Shown: one piece after another, positions 1,351-13,235 of the stretch
Layout of the letters: every line of letters begins with the position of its first letter
How positions within the stretch are numbered: position 1 is the stretch's first letter
Origin: Marnyiella aurantia
GTDB taxonomy: Bacteria > Bacteroidota > Bacteroidia > Flavobacteriales > Weeksellaceae
Assembly: GCF_014041915.1 (NCBI RefSeq)
Contig: NZ_CP059472.1
Coordinates: forward strand, 1,550,001 to 1,614,000
Direction of reading: 5' to 3'
Length of the DNA: 64,000 bases
Notes under the pieces: model-generated
Databases searched by the model: none
What the model was told of the DNA's origin: nothing
Seen by the model: only the letters and a program-made list of their open reading frames with translations
Program-made: the position numbers and the translations under genes

Positions 1351-2721
1351 TTAGACATTTACATCCTCAGTTTGAGACAGCCATGCCACAATCGGGTCAT
1401 ACAGCGTATCTATATTTCCGGCACCAACGGTAAGCAGGATGTCAAATTCTTTTTCTTTTATCTTTTCTAAAGCCGCTTCAAGACTGCTAACTTCTTTTGC
1501 TTTTGCCTGTACTTTATCAGCCAGCCAATAAGAAGTTATACCCGGAAAATTCTCCTGAATTTCGCGTGCCGGATAAATGTCCAACAACATTAATTCGTCT
1601 GAATTTTCAAGACTTCTTGCGAAATCATCAGCAAAATCACGGGTGCGGCTGAAAAGGTGCGGCTGGAAAACTACCAGCAGCTTCTTTGTAGGGTAGAAAG
1701 TCCTGATTGAACCTATCACCGCATCCAGTTCCGTGGGATGGTGTGCATAATCGTCAATGTAAATCCTGCCACTTTCAAAAAAATGCTTGGTATAGCGTCT
1801 TTTAATGCCTTTGAACGAAGCAATAGCCGATTTCAGGGTATTAAAGTCGACTCCTAAACTGTGCAGCAGTGCGATTGCAGCTGTAGCATTTTCCACATTA
1901 TGTATCCCTGGTATTTCCCAAACAAAATCCTTAACCACTTCTGTGGGCGTATGGAAATCGAAATAGATCCGGTCCCGGTCCATCCTGAGGTTATCTGAAT
2001 AATAATCTGCAGGCTCATTAACTGCATAGGACTTACCAGTCCTTCCAATATCTATTCCTTTACGCACAAACAGGTGATCATTATCCGGAACAAGGGCTCC
2101 AAACTGCCGGAATCCTTCTTCAATCGTCTCTCTGTCGCCATAAATATCAAGGTGATCCGCATCCGTAGATGTGATCACAGCCCAGTCGGGTGACAGTTTC
2201 AGGAAACTGCGGTCGTACTCGTCTGCCTCTACAACAGAATATTCGTTTCCGTTAAAGAGGAAATTGGATTTAAAGTTCTCTGCAATACCGCCCAGGAAAC
2301 AGGAGAACGGCAAACCGGCCTCTTTACACAGATGTGCAATCAGCGAGGAGGTTGTAGTTTTACCATGGGTTCCTGCAACTGCCAGACAATTAGTCTCGCG
2401 GGTAATTAAACCGAGTACCTCAGCCCGTTTAAGTATAGTGAAACCATTTTCCTGAAAATAATTCAGAATCCCAAGCTGTTTGATGGCTGGAGTATAAATA
2501 ACCAAAGTAGACGCTTTGTGGATCGTCTCAAAACCGGCGTCAACGATGTCTTCAAATGAAATCTCAACGCCTTCCAAAAGCAAAGCTGTTGTTAATTTGG
2601 TGGGCGTCCTGTCATAACCCAGGACGGTTTTGCCCGAAGCCTGGAAATAACGGGCCAGGGCACTCATCCCAATGCCGCCAATTCCTACGAAGTAGAAGTT
2701 TTGATACTGATCTACATTCAT
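1351..2721 (-). CDS. murC: UDP-N-acetylmuramate--L-alanine ligase MurC
   Basis: Cytoplasmic ATP-dependent ligase adding L-Ala to UDP-MurNAc, the first amino acid of the peptidoglycan stem. 456 aa, normal length. The N-terminal domain has the glycine-rich loop GIGGIGMS (13-20); the central domain has the Mur ligase P-loop GTHGKTT (117-123) and EADEYDRSF (165-173); HNVENATAA lies at 274-282; the C-terminal domain carries DDYAHHPTE (323-331), a MurC hallmark. The start overlaps the end of murG by 4 bases, indicating translational coupling. Confidence 0.97.
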   Translation of the reverse strand: MNVDQYQNFYFVGIGGIGMSALARYFQASGKTVLGYDRTPTKLTTALLLEGVEISFEDIVDAGFETIHKASTLVIYTPAIKQLGILNYFQENGFTILKRAEVLGLITRETNCLAVAGTHGKTTTSSLIAHLCKEAGLPFSCFLGGIAENFKSNFLFNGNEYSVVEADEYDRSFLKLSPDWAVITSTDADHLDIYGDRETIEEGFRQFGALVPDNDHLFVRKGIDIGRTGKSYAVNEPADYYSDNLRMDRDRIYFDFHTPTEVVKDFVWEIPGIHNVENATAAIALLHSLGVDFNTLKSAIASFKGIKRRYTKHFFESGRIYIDDYAHHPTELDAVIGSIRTFYPTKKLLVVFQPHLFSRTRDFADDFARSLENSDELMLLDIYPAREIQENFPGITSYWLADKVQAKAKEVSSLEAALEKIKEKEFDILLTVGAGNIDTLYDPIVAWLSQTEDVNV

Positions 2722-3827
2722 ATTTTCAGGGTTTTAAATATTTCATCTACTATCTGTACTGTCGCTTCAGGTTTTCTGAAAGCGTTCATATTCTTACTCA
2801 TCTCAGTGCGCAGTTCTGGATTTTCGCACATTTCGAGAAGCGTAGTCCAAAAAAGTTGGTTCATTTCGTTATCCTTTACCATTTTGGCGGCCTTCACAGC
2901 GACCAAACTCTCAGCATTTTTTGTCTGATGATCTTCTGCCGCAAAGGGAAAGGGCACTAAAAGAACGGGTTTTCCTGCAATGGCAAGTTCCGAAATCGCA
3001 ATAGCTCCGGCACGTGAAACAATTACATCGGCCGCTGAATAAGCCAGGGCCATTTCGGCAATAAACTCATGAAGCTGTATCTGAGAACCCGTGAGGTTAT
3101 TCAGCTGCGCATCTTTCATCAGATCGCTGTAGCCCGATTTACCGGTTTGCCAGATTAACTGGAAATCTTTCTTTAGAAGTTTATCAATATTCTTTTTCCA
3201 GGCCATATTCAGTGTGGCAGAGCCCAGTGAGCCGCCCACAGACAGAATTGTAAGTTTATTAGGGTCGAGGCCCATTTTTTCCTTTGCACTCTTTGTCTCC
3301 AGAAGACCATCTACAATGGTCTGACGTACCGGATTACCGGTGAAGACTGTCCTATCCTGCGGGAAACCGTTTACGTTCGGGTAAGCTGTGAAAACTTTTT
3401 TTGCTTTTCCACTAAGGATCTTATTCGTAATCCCTGCGTGGGAATTCTGCTCCTGTATAAAAACCGGTACTCCCAGGCGTGAAGCCGAGAACAAAGCCGG
3501 ACCACTGGCAAATCCTCCCGTTCCTACCGCGAAATCCGGTTTGAAATCCTTCAGGATCTTACGGGTTCTGCGTAAACTTTTCAAAACTTTAAAAGGTAAG
3601 CCAAAATTGGAAAGTAAGTTCCCACGGTCTATACCGGAAATATCGATTCCCTGTATAGCATAGCCTGCCTGCGGAATTTTCTCCATCTCCATCTTACCGT
3701 TCGCACCAATAAACAGAAAATCAGCATCCGGAAACCGCTTGCGGATCTCATCGGCAACAGCAATGGCCGGAAAGATGTGTCCACCTGTTCCGCCGCCGCT
3801 TAATACTATTTTCAGTTGTCTGGTCAT
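2718..3827 (-). CDS. murG: UDP-GlcNAc:undecaprenyl-PP-MurNAc-pentapeptide transferase MurG
   Basis: Membrane-associated GT28 glycosyltransferase converting lipid I to lipid II. 369 aa. The acceptor-binding glycine loop GGGTGGHIFPA starts at residue 10-11, the second Gly-rich loop (SVGGSLGS) lies near residue 200, and the C-terminal domain has the donor-binding AGAIAISELAIAGKP-type segment with LVPFPFAAEDHQ. It overlaps murC by 4 bases and follows ftsW after a 6-base gap, so it is embedded in the dcw operon. Confidence 0.97.
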   Translation of the reverse strand: MTRQLKIVLSGGGTGGHIFPAIAVADEIRKRFPDADFLFIGANGKMEMEKIPQAGYAIQGIDISGIDRGNLLSNFGLPFKVLKSLRRTRKILKDFKPDFAVGTGGFASGPALFSASRLGVPVFIQEQNSHAGITNKILSGKAKKVFTAYPNVNGFPQDRTVFTGNPVRQTIVDGLLETKSAKEKMGLDPNKLTILSVGGSLGSATLNMAWKKNIDKLLKKDFQLIWQTGKSGYSDLMKDAQLNNLTGSQIQLHEFIAEMALAYSAADVIVSRAGAIAISELAIAGKPVLLVPFPFAAEDHQTKNAESLVAVKAAKMVKDNEMNQLFWTTLLEMCENPELRTEMSKNMNAFRKPEATVQIVDEIFKTLKI

Positions 3828-3833
3828 ATACGC

Positions 3834-5069
3834 TTATGCAATATCATTAATTTCTTCAATGCTCTGTTTCTTGCCCATCCCTTCTTCATCAAAAACCTGG
3901 ATTCTTGAGCTCACGTTAAGTACCAGCCCCAGCTGTATATAGGTTACCAGCATGGAGGTACCACCATAACTGATAAGTGGCAAAGGCTGTCCGGTAACCG
4001 GAATAATATTTACGGCCACGGCTATGTTTACTGCCAACTGCACAAAAATCATTATTCCCATTGCGAGTACGAGCAGCGAGCCGAAGAATGCCGGCATTTT
4101 ACTGGCGATCATTACGATCCGTATTATAATGATCAGATAGAGTGCGATGAGAAATGCAGCCCCAAAAAATCCGTATTCTTCTACAATGATGGCAAAGATG
4201 AAATCCGAAGCAGACTGAGGCAGCATTTGCTTAAGTGCACTTTTGCCCGGCCCCATTCCTGTAATTCCGCCATGGACAATTGCTGCTTTGGCCTGCATCA
4301 CCTGGTAGTTCTTGGCTTTATCACTTTCGTCTTCAATCTGGGCACCCTGTTTAGAGTTCATGAAAACCTCTACACGGCTCATCCAGGTATGTACCCTGTT
4401 GCCGCCAATGAGGTTGGTATTCAAAGCCACCATGATGAAGAGGGTAATTGCAACTATTGAGGTACCAATGAATCCAGCGATATACTTCCAGTTCAGCTGC
4501 CCGACGATAAGAACCGCTACAGACACGATAAGTATCATAAGTGCTGTAGACCCGTTGTCCTTGCCTACCAGAAGCAGTACCAGAAGTATGGAGCCAAAAA
4601 TGTAAAATATGTTCTCTATGGGCAGCCGGTCCCGCTTTATCTTTTTCGTTAGATACCGGCACAGATAGATAATAAGCATCAGATAAGCGAATGAAGAAGG
4701 CTGGAAGGAAACCGGCGTTCCTGGAATCTTAAGCCAGCGGGAGGCACTGGCACCGTCTATAGTCTGGCCGGTAAACATGGTGATTCCCAGCAGGCCGATG
4801 GTTACTACCAGAAGTCCACTGCTCAGCTTGCCTATGACTTCATACTTTATCATGCCCACCATGCGCATGATTACAAGGCCTATAATCACAAAGAACATAT
4901 GCTTGATCACGTGACTGGTAGTAGTCCCGTTGTTTACGATATACTCCAGATTAGAACTGGCTGAATATACCGGGAATATGGAAAAGACAGAAATCACAAT
5001 AATAGCCATCCAAAGGACTTTATCGCCCTTAAGAAACTCCTTCCTGCTTTCTGCTTTTAATTCGTTCAT
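3834..5069 (-). CDS. ftsW: SEDS-family septal peptidoglycan polymerase FtsW
   Basis: Polytopic SEDS glycosyltransferase that polymerises septal glycan strands from lipid II together with the class B PBP encoded by the same operon. 411 aa with about ten hydrophobic segments. Visible SEDS features include FQPSSFAYLML (the FQPSE-like signature, here with Ser-Phe after Pro), a large extracytoplasmic loop after GNRVHTW, and the C-terminal PVTGQPLPLISYGGTSML motif. Gene order (murD-ftsW-murG) favours FtsW over RodA. Confidence 0.93.
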   Translation of the reverse strand: MNELKAESRKEFLKGDKVLWMAIIVISVFSIFPVYSASSNLEYIVNNGTTTSHVIKHMFFVIIGLVIMRMVGMIKYEVIGKLSSGLLVVTIGLLGITMFTGQTIDGASASRWLKIPGTPVSFQPSSFAYLMLIIYLCRYLTKKIKRDRLPIENIFYIFGSILLVLLLVGKDNGSTALMILIVSVAVLIVGQLNWKYIAGFIGTSIVAITLFIMVALNTNLIGGNRVHTWMSRVEVFMNSKQGAQIEDESDKAKNYQVMQAKAAIVHGGITGMGPGKSALKQMLPQSASDFIFAIIVEEYGFFGAAFLIALYLIIIIRIVMIASKMPAFFGSLLVLAMGIMIFVQLAVNIAVAVNIIPVTGQPLPLISYGGTSMLVTYIQLGLVLNVSSRIQVFDEEGMGKKQSIEEINDIA

Positions 5070-5094
5070 GACTTATACTTTTGTTTAATGCTGA

Positions 5095-6432
5095 TCAAAT
5101 AGTCACTTTTTGCAATACTTCTTTTTTGAACTGATCACCCCTGTCTTCATAGCTATTGAAGAGGTCGAAACTTGCACAGCACGGTGACAGAAGGACTGTA
5201 TCTCCTTTTTGTGCAACCGATCTGCTGATTTTGATTGCTTCCTCCATGCTCGAAGTATCGTAAATGTGATCTTTCTTGCCCTGGAAAAAATTGATGATTT
5301 TCTCATTATCCAGACCCAAGCAAATAATAGCCGATACCTTTCTTTTTACCAAATCTTCAATTTCGGTATAGTCATTTCCTTTATCTACGCCACCTACGAT
5401 CCAGACGGTAGGCCCCTTCATGCTCTCCAGCGCGTAATATGCCGCATTTACGTTTGTTGCTTTGCTGTCATTTATATATTTAACACCATCAACTTCGGTT
5501 ACTAGTTCCAGCCTGTGCTCTACAGCCTGAAAAGTCATCAGTGAGTTTCTTATACTTTCACTGGTAATATTTAATATCTTACCGGCGAGTGAGGCTGCAA
5601 GACTGTTAGCTATATTATGCTTGCCGATCAGGGACAGTTCGTCAATCTTCATTGAGAAGTGATCCTGCATTTTCACATAAATCTTATCCTCATCGGCATA
5701 CGCCCCCGGTTTTACCTTCTCTTTCAGGGAGAAAGGCAGCTTTTTGGCTTTAATCTCAAGTCTTTCCAGCAGGTTCAGGCTCATTTCATCATCACGGTTG
5801 TAGATGAAGAAATTATCATTCTCCTGATTTTCGGCGATACGGAACTTCGCAAGCGCATATTCTTCGTAATTATAGTTATACTGGTCCAGGTGGTCCTGAC
5901 TCAAATTCAGCAGCAGGGAGATATAAGGTCTGAAGTTCTGGATGTCGTCCAGCTGGAAAGAGCTAACCTCTAGAACATAGTATTCATGGTTTTCATCTGC
6001 CACCTGTTTTGCGAAGCTTTTTCCGATATTACCGCCCAAACCGACATTCATATTGTCATTCTTCAGAATATGGTAGATCAGAGAGGTAGTTGTAGTCTTT
6101 CCATTACTACCGGTAACCGCGATGATCTTTGCACTTGTAAATTCTGAAGCAAATTCTATTTCGGATGAAAGCCTGATGCCTTTTTCGTTAATCCTGACAA
6201 TCAGATCGGCTTTCTTAGGTATTCCGGGAGATTTTATAATCCAGTCTGCCTGCAGAATGCGTTCTTCATCATGGTTCCCTTCTTCAAATTCAATATTGTT
6301 TTCTGTAAGGATTGCTTTATACTCGTCCTTGATGATGCCTTTATCCGACAGGAATACGTCCAGCCCTTTTTTCATCGCCAGATACGCTGCTCCCACGCCG
6401 CTTTCGCCACCTCCTAAAACAACTATTTTCAT
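5095..6432 (-). CDS. murD: UDP-N-acetylmuramoylalanine--D-glutamate ligase MurD
   Basis: Cytoplasmic ligase adding D-Glu to UDP-MurNAc-L-Ala. The open frame continues 10 codons upstream (to 6462), but the ATG at 6430-6432 begins MKIVVLGGGESGVG, the canonical MurD N-terminal nucleotide-binding strand-loop, so this start gives 445 aa and is preferred. The P-loop AVTGSNGKTTTTS is near residue 110, followed by the lysine/ADP-binding NLSQDHLDQY region and the C-terminal domain with NDSKATN and LLSPCCASFD. It sits between mraY and ftsW. Confidence 0.95.
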   Translation of the reverse strand: MKIVVLGGGESGVGAAYLAMKKGLDVFLSDKGIIKDEYKAILTENNIEFEEGNHDEERILQADWIIKSPGIPKKADLIVRINEKGIRLSSEIEFASEFTSAKIIAVTGSNGKTTTTSLIYHILKNDNMNVGLGGNIGKSFAKQVADENHEYYVLEVSSFQLDDIQNFRPYISLLLNLSQDHLDQYNYNYEEYALAKFRIAENQENDNFFIYNRDDEMSLNLLERLEIKAKKLPFSLKEKVKPGAYADEDKIYVKMQDHFSMKIDELSLIGKHNIANSLAASLAGKILNITSESIRNSLMTFQAVEHRLELVTEVDGVKYINDSKATNVNAAYYALESMKGPTVWIVGGVDKGNDYTEIEDLVKRKVSAIICLGLDNEKIINFFQGKKDHIYDTSSMEEAIKISRSVAQKGDTVLLSPCCASFDLFNSYEDRGDQFKKEVLQKVTI

Positions 6433-6480
6433 CTCTCTTTCTTTAATCCTGTTAAATTTCACCAGCTATTTCAGGTGTAA

Positions 6481-7722
6481 TTACCTTACTTTCAGTGTAA
6501 TCAGGCATATAATTGCCATCATCACTCCAATAATGATCATTCGGTTTACAATCTTACTTTCATGATACCCGCTCTTCTGATAATGATGGTGAAGCGGTGA
6601 CATCTTGAAGAAGCGGTTGTTCTGTGCGTACTCCAGCCCAAATTTCCTTTTCCTGTATTTAAATACTGCAACCTGCAGCATAACTGATATATTCTCGACC
6701 AGGAATATTCCGCACAGTACCGGAATCAGTAGTTCCTTCCTCAGTATGATTGCAAGTACGGCAATTACACCTCCCAGCATTAAACTGCCGGTATCTCCCA
6801 TAAATACCTGTGCCGGGTAGGTATTATACCAGAAGAAACCGATGACAGCACCTACCAGTGCTACCGTAAATATGGTAGTCTCACCCATATTTGGGAGGAA
6901 CATTATGTTAAGGTAGTCCGCAAAAATTATATTCCCCGACACATAGGCCAGAAATGCAAGTGTCAGGAGTATGACGACACTTGTACCCGCGGCCAGACCG
7001 TCTATACCGTCCGTGATATTAGCGCCATTGGACACAGCTGTTACTATAAAGATTACAAGTGGGATAAAAATCGCCCAGGCCCATTCCTGCTGACCTTCCT
7101 CATCCATCCAGAAAAGGATTTTGCTGTAATCAAATTCATTATTCTTGAAGAAAGGCACCGTAGAAACCGTTGACTTTTCCGTAGGCATAAAGTTTCTTTC
7201 CACATTATTACGGTTCACCACAGGTGCATCTGCATATTTTCTTTTCACAGTGATGTCCGAATGAAAATACATGGTAACTCCTACAATGAGACCTAAACCT
7301 ACCTGACCGATCACCTTGAATTTACCCGAAAGTCCATCTTTATTTTTCTTGATTTTCTTCAGATAATCATCTATGAAACCTATGGCACCCATCCAAACCA
7401 CGGAGACAATCAGTAATGCGATATACACATTTAATATTTTGGTAAACAGGAGGACAGGAATCAGCGTAGCAATAATAATAATCAGGCCGCCCATTGTAGG
7501 TGTACCTTCTTTCTGCTTCTGACCTTCAAGGCCAAGATCACGTACCAGTTCGCCCATCTGACGGTTTCGTAGATAATTGATAATCCTTTTACCGTATACC
7601 AATGCGATTACCAAAGAGAACAGAACCGCCAACGCTGCTCTGAAAGAAATGTAACGCAACAGATTAAGACCCGGAATATGAATTCCGTTTGCAGTAAAAT
7701 ATTCGTACAGGTAGTATAGCAT
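6481..7722 (-). CDS. mraY: Phospho-N-acetylmuramoyl-pentapeptide transferase MraY
   Basis: Integral membrane enzyme forming lipid I from UDP-MurNAc-pentapeptide and undecaprenyl phosphate. 413 aa with about ten membrane segments. Catalytic and Mg-binding motifs are present: the first Asp pair in [36 protein letters not shown] and the histidine motif SPLHHHYQ near the C-terminus. It is longer than proteobacterial MraY because of an insertion of about 60 residues after [11 protein letters not shown], which I recall as usual in Bacteroidota. Located between murE and murD, without murF. Confidence 0.96.
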
Positions 7723-7757
7723 TATATCTGGTTAAATTAAGGGATCTGTTAATATTC

Positions 7758-9218
7758 TTACTTGGACATCTGTTTCCAAAGATGGCCAATGACCTCACGG
7801 TCGTCAAAATGGTGTCTTACTCCATTGATTTCCTGGTAGGTTTCGTGGCCTTTTCCGGCAACCAGAACAATGTCCTTCGGCTCGGCAAACTTAATAGCCA
7901 TTTTGATCGCCTCCTTTCTGTCGGCGATTACTGTATATTTACTAAAATACTGTGGCTCAATACCGGCTTCAATTTCCTTGATAATTAATTCCGGGCTTTC
8001 AGTACGTGGATTGTCGGATGTAAGAATGGCCAAAGTGGACTTACGGGCCGCAATCTTGCCCATCAAAGGTCTTTTTTCCCGGTCGCGGTCGCCGCCGCAG
8101 CCAAAAACGGTGATCAGCCTTTCATTTTTTGTCCGGATTTCGTTGATGCTGTCCAACAGATTTTCCAAAGCATCAGGTGTATGAGCGTAATCCACAACGA
8201 AGAAGATTCCGCCGTCAGACTTTATGATTTCAAACCGGCCGTTTACCCGTTTAAGCTCAGACATTGCTGTCAGTACCTCTTCCTCGGTCCTTCCCAACTC
8301 CACTGCGACAGCAAAGGCCAGTAACAGATTATATACATTAAACCGTCCGGTAAGGGTGGTCCAGAATTCTTTGCCGTTAAAATGGAGCATCATACCGTTA
8401 AAATCTGCTTCCAGCATCCTGCCATGATAGTCGGCCATGGTCTTTAGCGCATAGGTTTTCGTCTGAGCGGCCGTATTCTGCATCATGACACGTCCGTTTT
8501 TATCGTCCAGATTCGTAATTGCTACAGCATCGGAACTTAATCCGTCGAAGAAACTTTTTTTAGTGCGCAGGTATCCATCAAAAGTTTTATGATAGTCCAG
8601 ATGATCATGCGTAATATTGGTAAAGCCCGCAACACTAAAGGTAAGTCCTTCAGTTCTGTGCTGATGAATTCCATGCGAACTCACTTCCATAAATGCATAG
8701 TCGCAGCCTTGCTCCACAGCTTCTGCCATAATTCTGTTGATGGTCAGAGCATCCGGTGTCGTATGTGTTGAAGGCATCACCTTGTCGCCTATCCTGTAAT
8801 CTACAGTAGAAATCAGGACACACTGGTGGCCCAGTTTAGTGAAGATATCAAACAAAAGGGTACAAACTGACGTTTTACCGTTTGTTCCGGTGACTCCTGT
8901 AAGCTTGAGCTTTTGAGAAGGATTTCCATACCAATTGGAAGCAAGTGCACCCAAAGCCGTAGCGGTATCCTTTACGCGGACGTATGTTACCTGCGCATCC
9001 AGTTCCGCAGGAAATTCCTGGCAAACAATTACTGCTGCACCATTGCGTATTGAAGGATTAATAAACAGATGACCCTCTGCTGTCACACCTTTCAGCGCGA
9101 CATAGAGTGATCCCTCCACAGCCAGACGGCTGTCGGATACTACTGAAGAAACTTCACGGTTCAGTTCACCGTTAATTTCCAGCGTAGGGATTCTGCTTAG
9201 TAATGACTGTAAATTCAT
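7758..9218 (-). CDS. murE: UDP-MurNAc-L-Ala-D-Glu:meso-diaminopimelate ligase MurE
   Basis: Adds the third stem-peptide residue. 486 aa, normal length. The P-loop GVTGTNGKTS is near residues 113-122, followed by the THTTPD UDP-sugar segment and the carbamylated-lysine region. The substrate-selecting motif near the C-terminus reads DNPR (in TSDNPRTESPE), which in this family marks meso-DAP rather than lysine specificity and so predicts a DAP-type peptidoglycan. ATPases of this type end with an AGKGHETYQ motif, also present. Confidence 0.96.
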   Translation of the reverse strand: MNLQSLLSRIPTLEINGELNREVSSVVSDSRLAVEGSLYVALKGVTAEGHLFINPSIRNGAAVIVCQEFPAELDAQVTYVRVKDTATALGALASNWYGNPSQKLKLTGVTGTNGKTSVCTLLFDIFTKLGHQCVLISTVDYRIGDKVMPSTHTTPDALTINRIMAEAVEQGCDYAFMEVSSHGIHQHRTEGLTFSVAGFTNITHDHLDYHKTFDGYLRTKKSFFDGLSSDAVAITNLDDKNGRVMMQNTAAQTKTYALKTMADYHGRMLEADFNGMMLHFNGKEFWTTLTGRFNVYNLLLAFAVAVELGRTEEEVLTAMSELKRVNGRFEIIKSDGGIFFVVDYAHTPDALENLLDSINEIRTKNERLITVFGCGGDRDREKRPLMGKIAARKSTLAILTSDNPRTESPELIIKEIEAGIEPQYFSKYTVIADRKEAIKMAIKFAEPKDIVLVAGKGHETYQEINGVRHHFDDREVIGHLWKQMSK

Positions 9219-9267: not shown

Positions 9268-11256
9268 TTATTGAAGCGTAAGATATACCTTCTGATTTTT
9301 CCCGATAACGGATCCAACTTCGGGAAACTGCTCACGGATCTTTCCTACACCCTTATAATCCACTCTATAACCGGCATTCTCCAGTTGTGGAATAACATTT
9401 TTTCCGATTAAACCCACGAGAGCCGGCATACGTCCGTCGGTGATGTTCAGTTTTATATTTCGGGCTGTCATTTTAGACAAGTCGACCTTTCGGTCAACCA
9501 GCATAGACTGTTCAATATTCTGAGGCGTCTTCAGGAAAGTTTTTCCGGCAATCTCTTTAAATACAGGCGCAGAAACCACCCCGCCATAGAAACCCTTGGA
9601 ATTATCCGGTTGATCTACCATTACGTAACAGGTATACTTTGGATTATCTGCAGGATAAAAGCCAGCAAATGATGCGCGGTACTTCATTGGTCCCGGCAAC
9701 CAATATTCGAATCTGGCCGTTCCGGTCTTACCGGCCATTTTTAAATTGGGTGTAAAGATGCTTCTGGCGGTTCCCTTCTCAACAGCTTTGGTAAGTGCGC
9801 TGGTCATCATGGATATTGCTTCCTGCGATGCCATTTTCTTCACCATTACTTCCGGTTTCGCTTCGTATACCGTTTTACCGTCTTTCATTATTCGGTCTAT
9901 AAACAGTGGCTTCAGCATTGTTCCCTTATTGGCCACTCCGTTATAAAATGTAGAAAGCTGCAGAAGATTAAAATTGGTTGAATATCCGTAGGAAATGGAA
10001 GCAAGCGTGGCTGCATTCCAGCGTTTGTGTTCCGGAGTGTATATAAACGGCTTCGTAACCCCTGGTAACTCAATATCCATCTTGTCAAACATCTTCCATC
10101 GTTTCAGATGGTTAAGGAAGATCTGAGGATTAGCTGCGTAATGCTGTGTGATCAGTTTTGCTGTTCCTACATTGCTGGATTTGGCCAGTACATCACTTAT
10201 TTCATAGGTACCACCACCATGACCGTCGGAAATACGCTGTCCGGCGTAAGTCCACACCCCATTGCCCACATTTACAGTTGATTTTTCGGTGATGAATCCA
10301 TCGTCCATTGCTGCAAGCAGTGAAACAGTCTTGAAGGTAGAGCCCGGCTCAATCCCATCTTTCAGGATATAATTATAGGAATCCACGTACATACCCGGTT
10401 CTGTACGGGTAAGGTTTACCATAGCGCGAACTTTTCCTGTAGCGACTTCCATGACCAAAACGCTGCCATGATGGGCATCAAACTTGACAAGTTGCTTCTC
10501 CAGTGCAGAGTGTGCTATATCCTGGATACGGAGGTCCAGGGTTGTAAACACATCATGACCGTCTACAGGTTCGATGGCTTTCCAAAAATCGATAGGTTTC
10601 CACTGACTGGAGTTTACGCGCTGTTCCAGCCGTGTGCCGTCGGTACCGGACAGGTATTTGGAAAATGCAGCTTCCAGACCGGACTTGTACTGACCGTTAT
10701 CCATTCCAATTGTTCCGGCCCCAATTTCCGTAGTTGCCAGTTCCCGTTTAAATTTACGGTCTACAATGAATCCACCCCGGTTTTTGCCCCGGCTGAAGAT
10801 CGGAAACTTACGTATACGGTCGTACTCATCGAAATCCAGACCCTTCACCAGTGCATAATACTGGTTTTTCTTTTTGCGCTGCTCATCAAAGCGCTGACGG
10901 TAAATATTTCTCGGCTTACCGAACATAACGTTCAGGGAGTCTGTAAGAGCGCCTATATTATTGCTGTATACACTGTCGCGAATAACCTTGAAGTCAATAT
11001 AAATATCATAGCGCATTACCGTGGTCGCCAGTATGGACCCGTCTGCGGCGTAGAGATTTCCACGTGCCGCTTTCAATTTGGCTTCCCGATAGTTTTTACT
11101 GATATAATCCTCTTTAATGGCCTCTACATTAGTATTCTGCAAAATGACTATCCGTACAAGGAAAAGCACAAACACAAGAAATGCTACCAATGCAAAAAGG
11201 TAGCCCCATCTTAACGTTTTACGTCTTTTTCTGTCGAAATCACTCTGCTTTTGCAT
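9268..11256 (-). CDS. ftsI: Division-specific class B penicillin-binding protein with PASTA domain (FtsI/PBP3)
   Basis: Septal transpeptidase that cross-links new peptidoglycan with FtsW. 662 aa: cytoplasmic basic N-terminus, one membrane anchor (about 18-38), pedestal domain, then the transpeptidase domain with catalytic Ser in STFK (306-309), SSN (360-362) and KTGTA (510-514). A single C-terminal PASTA domain (about 605-662) is present; PASTA repeats are rarer on Gram-negative FtsI but common on Bacteroidota homologues. The start overlaps ftsL-like by 17 bases, suggesting coupling. Confidence 0.95.
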   Translation of the reverse strand: MQKQSDFDRKRRKTLRWGYLFALVAFLVFVLFLVRIVILQNTNVEAIKEDYISKNYREAKLKAARGNLYAADGSILATTVMRYDIYIDFKVIRDSVYSNNIGALTDSLNVMFGKPRNIYRQRFDEQRKKKNQYYALVKGLDFDEYDRIRKFPIFSRGKNRGGFIVDRKFKRELATTEIGAGTIGMDNGQYKSGLEAAFSKYLSGTDGTRLEQRVNSSQWKPIDFWKAIEPVDGHDVFTTLDLRIQDIAHSALEKQLVKFDAHHGSVLVMEVATGKVRAMVNLTRTEPGMYVDSYNYILKDGIEPGSTFKTVSLLAAMDDGFITEKSTVNVGNGVWTYAGQRISDGHGGGTYEISDVLAKSSNVGTAKLITQHYAANPQIFLNHLKRWKMFDKMDIELPGVTKPFIYTPEHKRWNAATLASISYGYSTNFNLLQLSTFYNGVANKGTMLKPLFIDRIMKDGKTVYEAKPEVMVKKMASQEAISMMTSALTKAVEKGTARSIFTPNLKMAGKTGTARFEYWLPGPMKYRASFAGFYPADNPKYTCYVMVDQPDNSKGFYGGVVSAPVFKEIAGKTFLKTPQNIEQSMLVDRKVDLSKMTARNIKLNITDGRMPALVGLIGKNVIPQLENAGYRVDYKGVGKIREQFPEVGSVIGKNQKVYLTLQ

Positions 11257-11605
11257 AGCTGCTGTCCAGTTTAATCAATAATTTATGAGGATGACTCTCC
11301 AACGGTAGAAGTGAATCCTGGATCATTTCCTTTCCCAATTGGGATTCCATCTTCACCTTAATAAGTCGGCTCTGAGCATAAGCATTCCTCGATTTAAATT
11401 CTTCTGTCTGTTCTTTCAATTCATTAACAACCTCAATCTTCTGGTTTACCTTGTGATTACTGTAGATCATCACCATCATCAGCACAAAGAGCAGCAGGAA
11501 ATAGCGGTAATGCGTTTTGATCTCATCCCGGTTCAGGAAATTCCCCTTTATGATATCTATAAAGGTTAATTTTTTCTGAGGTTTGTATGTTGTTTTTTTT
11601 GCCAA
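11240..11605 (-). CDS. FtsL-like small divisome membrane protein
   Basis: A 121 aa protein with a basic N-terminus, one membrane segment (about residues 35-50, rich in Leu/Met/Val) and a heptad-like charged stretch afterwards (KVNQKIEVVNELKEQTEEFK), i.e. FtsL topology with a periplasmic coiled coil. The position between rsmH and ftsI is exactly that of ftsL in the dcw cluster. FtsL proteins share little sequence, so the assignment is by topology and context. The Bacteroidota family is usually named FtsL-like or 'S-adenosyl-methyltransferase' by neighbour transfer; the latter name has no support here. Confidence 0.82.
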   Translation of the reverse strand: MAKKTTYKPQKKLTFIDIIKGNFLNRDEIKTHYRYFLLLFVLMMVMIYSNHKVNQKIEVVNELKEQTEEFKSRNAYAQSRLIKVKMESQLGKEMIQDSLLPLESHPHKLLIKLDSSYAKAE

Positions 11606-11625: not shown

Positions 11626-12519
11626 TCAGAGTTTAATTCCTGTTCTCATTTTTGCACTTCTCGCACGCGAGTTGGTCTCTATTTCAGCCCCGTCGGGCAC
11701 AGTTGCTTTGCTTTTCAGCAGTTCGAAAGTTTTATTATAATTTCCGTAGATGTCTCTTGCTGGCTCACCTTCAAACATTCCGTTCTTCAGAAATCTTTTC
11801 ACCAGCCTGTCTTCCAGGGAATGGTAGGAAATAACCACCAAACGTCCACCCGGTTTAAGAACCGAGTAAGCCTGCTGAAGCATATCCTTCAAAACTTCCA
11901 GTTCCTGGTTTACCTCAATACGCACCGCCTGAAATAACTGCGCATAAAATTTATTCTGCTTAAACTGCGGTATATAACTGAAGATTTTTTTCAGGTCTTC
12001 CGTGGTCTCAATTCTTTTTATTTTACGGTGATGAACAATCTCCCGGGCTAACCTGCGTGCTTCACGAAGCTCACCATAATGATAGAAAATATCAGCAAGA
12101 TGCTCTTCTTCATAATCATTGATGACCGCTTTGGCATCCAGTTGCTGCAGGACATTCATCCGCATATCCAGCGGCGCGTCGCTTCGGGTGGAGAAGCCTC
12201 TTTCAGCAGCATCAAACTGATGGGACGAAACTCCCAGATCCGCCAGCACACCATCTACCTGGGAAATACCGTAAAGGAGCAGCGAGTTTTCCAGAAAGCG
12301 GAAATTCTGATTGACCAGCGTGAACCGCTCGTCTTCAATATTATTCTTTAATGCATCGAGATCCTGATCAAATCCAAAGAGTCTTCCCTGAGGCGAAAGA
12401 CGCTGCAGTATTTCGCTGGAATGCCCGCCGCCGCCGAAAGTGCAGTCCACATAAATACCGTCCGGACGGGTGACCAAATCATCTACGCTCTGCTTAAGAA
12501 GGACGGGATTATGATACAT
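11626..12519 (-). CDS. rsmH: 16S rRNA (cytosine(1402)-N4)-methyltransferase RsmH
   Basis: SAM-dependent enzyme methylating C1402 of 16S rRNA in the decoding centre (also called MraW). 297 aa, typical length. The SAM-binding motif VDCTFGGGGHS is near residues 24-34, with GFDQD as motif II, the ADLGVSSHQFD segment and the C-terminal ISYHSLEDRLVK motif specific to the family. Second gene of the dcw operon, 17 bases after mraZ. Confidence 0.97.
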   Translation of the reverse strand: MYHNPVLLKQSVDDLVTRPDGIYVDCTFGGGGHSSEILQRLSPQGRLFGFDQDLDALKNNIEDERFTLVNQNFRFLENSLLLYGISQVDGVLADLGVSSHQFDAAERGFSTRSDAPLDMRMNVLQQLDAKAVINDYEEEHLADIFYHYGELREARRLAREIVHHRKIKRIETTEDLKKIFSYIPQFKQNKFYAQLFQAVRIEVNQELEVLKDMLQQAYSVLKPGGRLVVISYHSLEDRLVKRFLKNGMFEGEPARDIYGNYNKTFELLKSKATVPDGAEIETNSRARSAKMRTGIKL

Positions 12520-12536
12520 TGATATAAATTCTGGTG

Positions 12537-13004
12537 TTAAATTTCTTCGTCGAAACTGATGTCGCCCATTACTTCTTCCGCAAGGTTTGCAAAATCGGCT
12601 TCGGTGGTCATGATCACTTTCTCATAGGCAGCCTTGTCCCATATTTCGAACAGTTCGCCGGCGCTTGTAATTACCACTTCCTTGCTAAGTCCGGCATAAA
12701 GCGTAAGATCTTTGGAAATCTGCAGCCTTCCGACTGTATCAGGCTCCACCGTTTTTAGTCCCGCAGTAAAGCTCCGGATGAAATCAGCATTTTTTTTCTG
12801 AAACCGGTTCAGGCGGTTAATCTTCATCATAAGCTTTTCCCAGGCGTCCATTGGATATACTTCAAGACACGGCTGGAATACGGAACGCTTTACTACAAAG
12901 GCATCACCACCAAAGTTCTCCATCTGCTTAGCCAGCGATGAAGGCAGCTTCAGGCGCCCTTTGTCGTCTATTTTGCATTCGTATGTGCCTATGAAATTAT
13001 TCAT
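12537..13004 (-). CDS. mraZ: MraZ, transcriptional regulator at the head of the dcw operon
   Basis: DNA-binding AbrB-like protein that in E. coli and Mycoplasma controls its own dcw operon. The open frame extends to 13043, but the start at 13002-13004 gives MNNFIGTYECKIDDKGRLKLP, the standard MraZ N-terminus, and 155 aa. The two tandem swapped-hairpin domains are visible: DDKGRLKLP in the first half and DTVGRLQISKDL in the second. The extra 13 upstream codons would include promoter sequence, which supports the shorter form. A two-copy 10-base repeat resembling MraZ boxes lies 32-52 bases upstream of the start codon. Confidence 0.96.
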   Translation of the reverse strand: MNNFIGTYECKIDDKGRLKLPSSLAKQMENFGGDAFVVKRSVFQPCLEVYPMDAWEKLMMKINRLNRFQKKNADFIRSFTAGLKTVEPDTVGRLQISKDLTLYAGLSKEVVITSAGELFEIWDKAAYEKVIMTTEADFANLAEEVMGDISFDEEI

Positions 13005-13010
13005 TTGGGA

Positions 13011-13018
13011 CAAATTTA
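13011..13018 (-). promoter_or_regulatory. Promoter -7 element of the dcw operon (TAAATTTG)
   Basis: Exact match to the Bacteroidota -7 consensus TAnnTTTG, ending only 6 bases before the mraZ ATG. Transcription would start at or within 1-2 bases of the start codon, so the mRNA is predicted to be nearly leaderless. No TTG is seen at the usual -33 spacing; that region coincides with the repeat pair at 13036-13056. Confidence 0.65.
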
Positions 13019-13035
13019 TATATTTATTTCCAAAA

Positions 13036-13056
13036 CCTCCCACTTTCTACCACTTT
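13036..13056 (-). promoter_or_regulatory. Probable MraZ operator: two 10-base direct repeats
   Basis: Read on the minus strand, AAAGTGGTAG is followed directly by AAAGTGGGAG and one more G. MraZ boxes described in E. coli (TGGGN with 5-base spacers) and Mycoplasma (AAAGTG plus G/T, N3) have the same core and 10-base period. The repeats cover the predicted -33 region of the mraZ promoter, so binding would be expected to repress. The repeat is seen; its function is inferred. Confidence 0.7.
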
Positions 13057-13235
13057 TTGCCTTATTGTTTATAACTTTTGGAATGATAAGTTACGGAACG
13101 GAAGTCGCTGGAATAAAAGCAGTTGTAAAAAGGCTTGTAACTGAGCAAAAAAGAACCGCCGGAATAGGCGATTTCAGAATAAAAGATTATTTTTATAAAA
13201 TGTTACGAATTATTCTGCACCATGGCTGTAATTCG

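Follow-up and report, generated by a model that had tools for sequence, protein, structure and literature searches.

A putative composite regulatory site precedes the dcw cluster of Marnyiella aurantia, in which an MraZ autorepression operator would be joined to a site for a second regulator, most likely DnaA; we hold this explanation as a whole with moderate confidence. As judged from the promoters compared, the putative composite site is a feature of the class Bacteroidia. Its elements are conserved in sequence and in register, and the upstream one persists in some genomes that lack MraZ. The initial annotation of the window (the whole 64,000-nucleotide stretch of DNA that was analysed) had described the MraZ operator, which is supported here, and had missed a third, degenerate repeat and an upstream box, TTATAAACA. 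The box, a second conserved element, is more surprising than the repeats themselves. The features of the locus are the following:

13066–13074 (−), DnaA-box-like element TTATAAACA (class pattern TTWTNMACA), at approx. −68 to −60 relative to the predicted start
13047–13056 (−), MraZ repeat AAAGTGGTAG, approx. −50 to −41 from the predicted start
13037–13046 (−), MraZ repeat AAAGTGGGAG, approx. −40 to −31, spanning the −33 position
13027–13036 (−), degenerate third repeat GTTTTGGAAA, in register, with the core TTGG (13033–13030) in place of GTGG
13011–13018 (−), −7 promoter element TAAATTTG, which fits TAHHTTTG (PMC6847099)
13005–13010 (−), spacer TCCCAA between TAAATTTG and the ATG at 13004
13005–13006 (−), predicted 5′ leader of 1–2 nt, with +1 at 13006 or 13005 from the spacing given in PMC6847099
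12537–13004 (−), mraZ coding sequence with an ATG start, 155 aa (TIGR00242, PF02381)
11626–12519 (−), rsmH (mraW; TIGR00006)
11240–11605 (−), gene of an FtsL-like protein (PF19579)
9268–11256 (−), gene of a penicillin-binding protein (PBP) with a PASTA domain, a division PBP by its place
1351–9218 (−), murE, mraY, murD, ftsW-like, murG and murC in a closely spaced row, the rest of the dcw cluster

The first gene, directly downstream of the repeats, encodes MraZ (TIGR00242, 102.6 bits; cut-off 98.35), with two PF02381 stretches. The gene heads a closely spaced row on one strand comprising rsmH, the FtsL-like gene, the PBP gene, murE, mraY, murD, an ftsW-like gene (whose ftsW match is below its cut-off), murG and murC. 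Immediately 5′ of mraZ there are at least two direct repeats with a GTGG core and a 10-bp period, the arrangement expected of an MraZ operator. The two 10-base direct repeats of the initial annotation are present on the minus strand at 13056–13047 and 13046–13037, where they overlap the −33 region of the TAAATTTG promoter, and GTTTTGGAAA is a one-mismatch member of the same GTGG array. In the whole 2.6-Mb genome an exact copy of AAAGTGGNNNAAAGTGG (0 mismatches) occurs in a single place, the mraZ upstream site; looser matches are not enriched, since with up to two mismatches there are 28 places versus 66 for the reversed control.

Eraso (2014) reportedly described MraZ boxes in E. coli. TGGG repeats were read directly in the sequence of E. 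coli K-12 at −43, −33 and −23 from the mraZ start, again with a period of 10 bp, in agreement with the shared period proposed for the window. Comparison of mraZ upstream regions, along the lines suggested at the outset, showed that 101 of 109 Bacteroidia genera have at least two exact GTGG cores at a 10-bp period (all 17 from Weeksellaceae, 31 of the 32 from other Flavobacteriales and 53 of the 60 from the rest of the class), although the invariance of GTGG in the genus and column counts is partly by construction, because GTGG was the anchor by which arrays were chosen. These counts are based on one locus per genus, the first one fetched, with genera as labelled by the search tool; three of 186 mraZ loci without a readable start (L139, L219 and L279) were left out, and some genomes were retrieved twice. 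All 80 named Weeksellaceae loci, the best of 204 candidates, share the repeats, the promoter and their spacing; these loci are mostly from Chryseobacterium and Kaistella and are not part of the genus counts.

The class-level set comprised the 30 best-scoring loci and hand-picked ones, mostly one per family, among the matches listed. Of the 39 loci from other Bacteroidota classes, three lacked a usable anchor (L412, L422 and L429), and 29 of the 36 usable ones carry MraZ repeats by our own count. Since the repeats are kept across Weeksellaceae, Bacteroidia and other Bacteroidota classes, the objection that they lack conservation is excluded. Taken together with the identical period in E. coli, this conservation means that the box is kept in Bacteroidota with another type of promoter, as had been claimed. 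In one family from another Bacteroidota class (f90; L423–L425, L427, L434 and L435) the MraZ repeats follow TACATT, and TTGACA lies upstream in five of its six loci (by eye), which is a different promoter arrangement.

The −7 element TAAATTTG (13018–13011) has the TAHHTTTG form of sigma-ABfr promoters and, as stated in the initial annotation, ends 6 bases before the ATG (13004). In Flavobacterium johnsoniae this element is separated from the start site by 4–5 nt (according to PMC6847099), which is why +1 is predicted at 13006 or 13005, with a leader of 1–2 nt. From this predicted +1 it follows that the −33 position assigned to the repeats was right, the second of them lying over it. In the named Weeksellaceae loci (best 80 of 204 candidates), TAAATTTG or TAATTTTG serves as the −7 element in 80/80, in each case exactly 6 nt before the mraZ ATG.

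In the genus set, where the −7 element was sought solely as TAHHTTTG, a match was found in 17/17 Weeksellaceae genera. Its distance from the ATG in these representatives is 6 nt in 12, 7 nt in one and 9–14 nt in three; for the remaining genus (g2) the scan gave no sensible start, and in three further members of the genus the ATG follows after 6 nt. Among other Flavobacteriales a match occurs in 21 of 32 genera (18–34 nt to the start in 19, no sensible start in two), and among other Bacteroidia in 13 of 60, with 13–67 nt to the mraZ start. Within the limits of the TAHHTTTG scan, the predicted near-leaderless start of mraZ is thus seen only in Weeksellaceae. Leaders of 1–2 nt are uncommon according to the figures given for Bacteroidota: 5.5% are leaderless in F. 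psychrophilum (PMC9723704), 87% of the leaders are longer than 10 nt in F. johnsoniae (PMC6847099) and approx. 3.7% are shorter than 10 nt in Bacteroides thetaiotaomicron (PMC7366714). The main text of these three transcriptome papers, which deal with non-Weeksellaceae species, does not name mraZ. We also looked by eye, in several loci, for a divergent promoter, and found no TAnnTTTG reading away from mraZ through the upstream box.

The box itself is widespread. In 80 of the 109 genera (16/17 Weeksellaceae, 29/32 other Flavobacteriales and 35/60 other Bacteroidia genera) a match to TTWTNMACA falls in the 54 nt that precede the first exact GTGG. By comparison, 2000 column-permuted motifs averaged 1.3 (at most 23) and 300 shuffles averaged 1.4 (at most 6); since the pattern was framed after many of the same loci had been viewed, these permutation values serve as description. 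The gap between the box and the first exact GTGG is 1–3 or 11–13 bp in 77 of these 80 genera, i.e. it takes two states one helical turn apart. In the named Weeksellaceae loci (best 80 of 204) the box is found in 79 of 80, and every gap is 12 bp. Of the 29 genera without a forward box, 17 carry it reversed (permuted mean 0.35, maximum 7 of 2000), although some of these hits may be MraZ repeats, since TGTGGAWAA shares GTGG with the repeat. In 10 of the 17 the reversed box reads TTATCCACA or TTTTCCACA. Twelve of the 109 Bacteroidia genera lack the box in both orientations; in its forward orientation it is absent from all 36 usable loci from other Bacteroidota classes, and E. coli has no such box beside its mraZ repeats.

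The DnaA consensus is TTWTNCACA, with up to one mismatch allowed (PMC7561715). The window copy, TTATAAACA, has A instead of C at position 6, which leaves it one mismatch from the strict consensus and within the tolerance of that source; we therefore call it DnaA-box-like rather than a DnaA box. Among the genera with the box, 64 of 80 carry A at position 6 and 16 carry C (the strict form). In unfiltered columns A or T occupies position 3 in 54 of the 58 genera, and position 5 is variable, a pattern which the DnaA consensus allows. The strict sequence TTATCCACA occurs in the genome of the window in 31 places (14 for the reversed control), and the DnaA encoded by this genome carries the C-terminal motif DHSTV. 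The counterpart motif in E. coli DnaA is DHTTV.

DnaA is our leading reading of the second binder, and on the sequence evidence a fairly probable one. Its main competitor, which we consider unlikely, is a non-DnaA regulator, new to Bacteroidia, that would bind the box and control dcw together with some replication genes. Such a protein might explain the preference for A at position 6, the conserved A-tract located 5′ of the box and the many copies that read GTTNNNAAC, a short palindrome. It would also fit the distribution of the 13-mer AAAGTTWTCMACA, which was found 106 times in 40 genomes (judged by coordinates, 19 of these hits fall in the mraZ promoter): by our own sums it is enriched in 7 Weeksellaceae genomes (44 versus 11 for the reversed control), but not in the 33 genomes from outside the family (62 versus 84). 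However, positions 3 and 5 vary as they do in DnaA boxes, and the strict forms TTATCCACA and TTTTCCACA occur at mraZ in both orientations. The palindrome was rejected as a requirement, since the base before the TT of the box varies (G 50, T 15, C 12 and A 3 in the 80 named Weeksellaceae loci, the best of 204).

Also against such a regulator, the same variants are shared by dnaB promoters and by box clusters. Among dnaB promoters of non-Weeksellaceae Flavobacteriales the box was found in 11 of 14 (permuted mean 0.94, maximum 7 of 1000), in a count for which 18 of 29 loci passed the search expression, none of them from Weeksellaceae. Five genomes of one family (f3; L325, L326, L331, L335 and L339) carry a TTATNMACA pair exactly 20 bp apart at dnaB, approx. 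110 and 90 bp before the start, and the dnaB gene of the window's own genome has TTATCAACA at −105. No box was present within 260 bp in 5 of the 27 dnaB promoters shown (of 29 loci). TTATCMACA pairs within 30 bp gave 11 matches in 7 of 20 genomes, versus 2 for the reversed control. In two genera of family f3 (L284 and L291, at approx. 1500–1530) an HU-like gene (named by eye) is preceded by a TTATCAACA pair with a spacing of 20 bp, and the two genera have the same gene order there.

In one Weeksellaceae genome (L288, 1349–1518) six DnaA-like boxes with an AT-rich core, and with both C and A at position 6, are packed into 170 bp. This cluster, which mixes TTTTCCACA, TTTTCAACA, TTATCAACA and TTATCCACA, is perhaps the origin of that genome. 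In the genome of the window dnaA is located at the start of the contig, and the stretches read beside it contain no box cluster. As origin candidates we inspected two pairs of TTATCCACA (1.10 and 1.18 Mb), and we found no origin marked by a box cluster in this genome. Sampling of the GC skew gave mostly negative values up to the window and mostly positive ones from approx. 1.64 Mb, and this change of sign near 1.6 Mb suggests that the origin may be close to the dcw cluster, despite the position of dnaA.

Could the box be an inherited sequence without function, the ordinary MraZ operator alone being of importance? Conservation alone is no proof of function, and close relatives have whole promoter regions in common. 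Nevertheless, in unfiltered columns from 58 non-Weeksellaceae genera with three exact repeats, the top base reaches 0.64–0.81 in six of the nine box columns versus 0.28–0.52 in columns −45 to −17, and the box survives both a 10-bp shift and inversion, so that we consider this explanation very improbable.

Genomes without mraZ bear on the nature of the binding protein. There were 59 genomes without an MraZ match; 17 of them were searched, and 15 of these gave an rsmH locus. TTWTNMACA is present within 200 bp before rsmH, on either strand, in 8 of the 15 (1000 permutations: mean 1.0, maximum 5), and the extended form AASTTWTNMACA in 4 (permuted mean 0.04, maximum 2); all 15 were counted, including a stretch that lies inside rsmH (G208), three loci of one genus (f52) and a hit near the start codon (G380). 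A GTGG pair before rsmH was found in none of them. In one Weeksellaceae genome without a detected mraZ (G025, locus L442) the box and a single relic GTGG are kept before rsmH. Since the box stays in place at rsmH after the loss of mraZ and the repeats, it is probably not an MraZ site, and a factor other than MraZ most likely reads it. We regard it as least probable that the box is an inverted half-site of the MraZ operator itself: on the opposite strand it reads TGTTGATAA, which is similar to TGTGGTAAA, and it stays in register with the repeats, but the would-be core G positions vary (any base at position 5, mostly A at position 6) in contrast to the retention of the exact GTGG repeats, other-class loci have the repeats and no forward box, and the rsmH loci without mraZ and repeats disfavour it further.

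The repeats resemble known MraZ boxes in being direct, in their 10-bp period and in their position before mraZ. In Mollicutes the MraZ boxes are AAAGTG[T/G] repeats (Fisunov 2016, as cited in PMC8475190), and in Mycoplasma genitalium a single exact site is found, likewise at mraZ, according to the same source. Unlike in E. coli and Mollicutes, the promoter here is of the sigma-ABfr type (TAnnTTTG), the predicted start is near-leaderless and a DnaA-like box adjoins the array. A link between DnaA and division is already known in kind, since in Bacillus subtilis DnaA binds the ftsL promoter region, as detected by ChIP (Goranov 2005, as cited in PMC8203912); RsmH and PbpB are encoded in the operon of FtsL (PMC11019786). 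That case shares with ours a replication initiator at a division-gene promoter, but it rests on ChIP in a Firmicute, whereas here the site is read from sequence, in Bacteroidia, and stands in register with an MraZ array. DnaA is also linked to a division gene in Caulobacter, where the ftsZ promoter is bound by DnaA in vitro and is DnaA-dependent in vivo (Hottes 2005, as cited in PMC8203912); the gene is a different one, no MraZ repeats are reported for it, and in vitro binding there contrasts with sequence evidence here. Our searches of the open-licence PMC literature showed no DnaA box paired with an MraZ operator.

In the explanation that we favour, MraZ, the product of the first gene, would bind the GTGG repeats spaced at 10 bp, cover the −33 position of the sigma-ABfr promoter and repress its own operon; by analogy with E. 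coli and Mycoplasma, MraZ binding and autorepression at the repeats are very likely. A second DNA-binding protein, most likely DnaA, would bind TTWTNMACA at approx. −60, beside the array, and either help or antagonize MraZ, which would tie dcw transcription to the replication cycle. The transcript would start 1–2 nt before the mraZ ATG and be translated almost without a leader; both this start site and the direction of regulation are predictions.

These results extend the MraZ operator to the phylum, with a promoter type of its own, and the retention of operator and box by many related genera hints at a link between DNA replication and division. Tentatively, and with slightly less than even confidence, we propose that in most of Bacteroidia a DnaA–MraZ switch with a fixed helical register may couple dcw expression to the initiation of replication, and that DnaA may have outlived MraZ in some lineages. 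With a DnaA-like site in MraZ register across much of the class, a change of a few bases in Flavobacterium or Chryseobacterium would put the timing of division relative to replication to a direct test.
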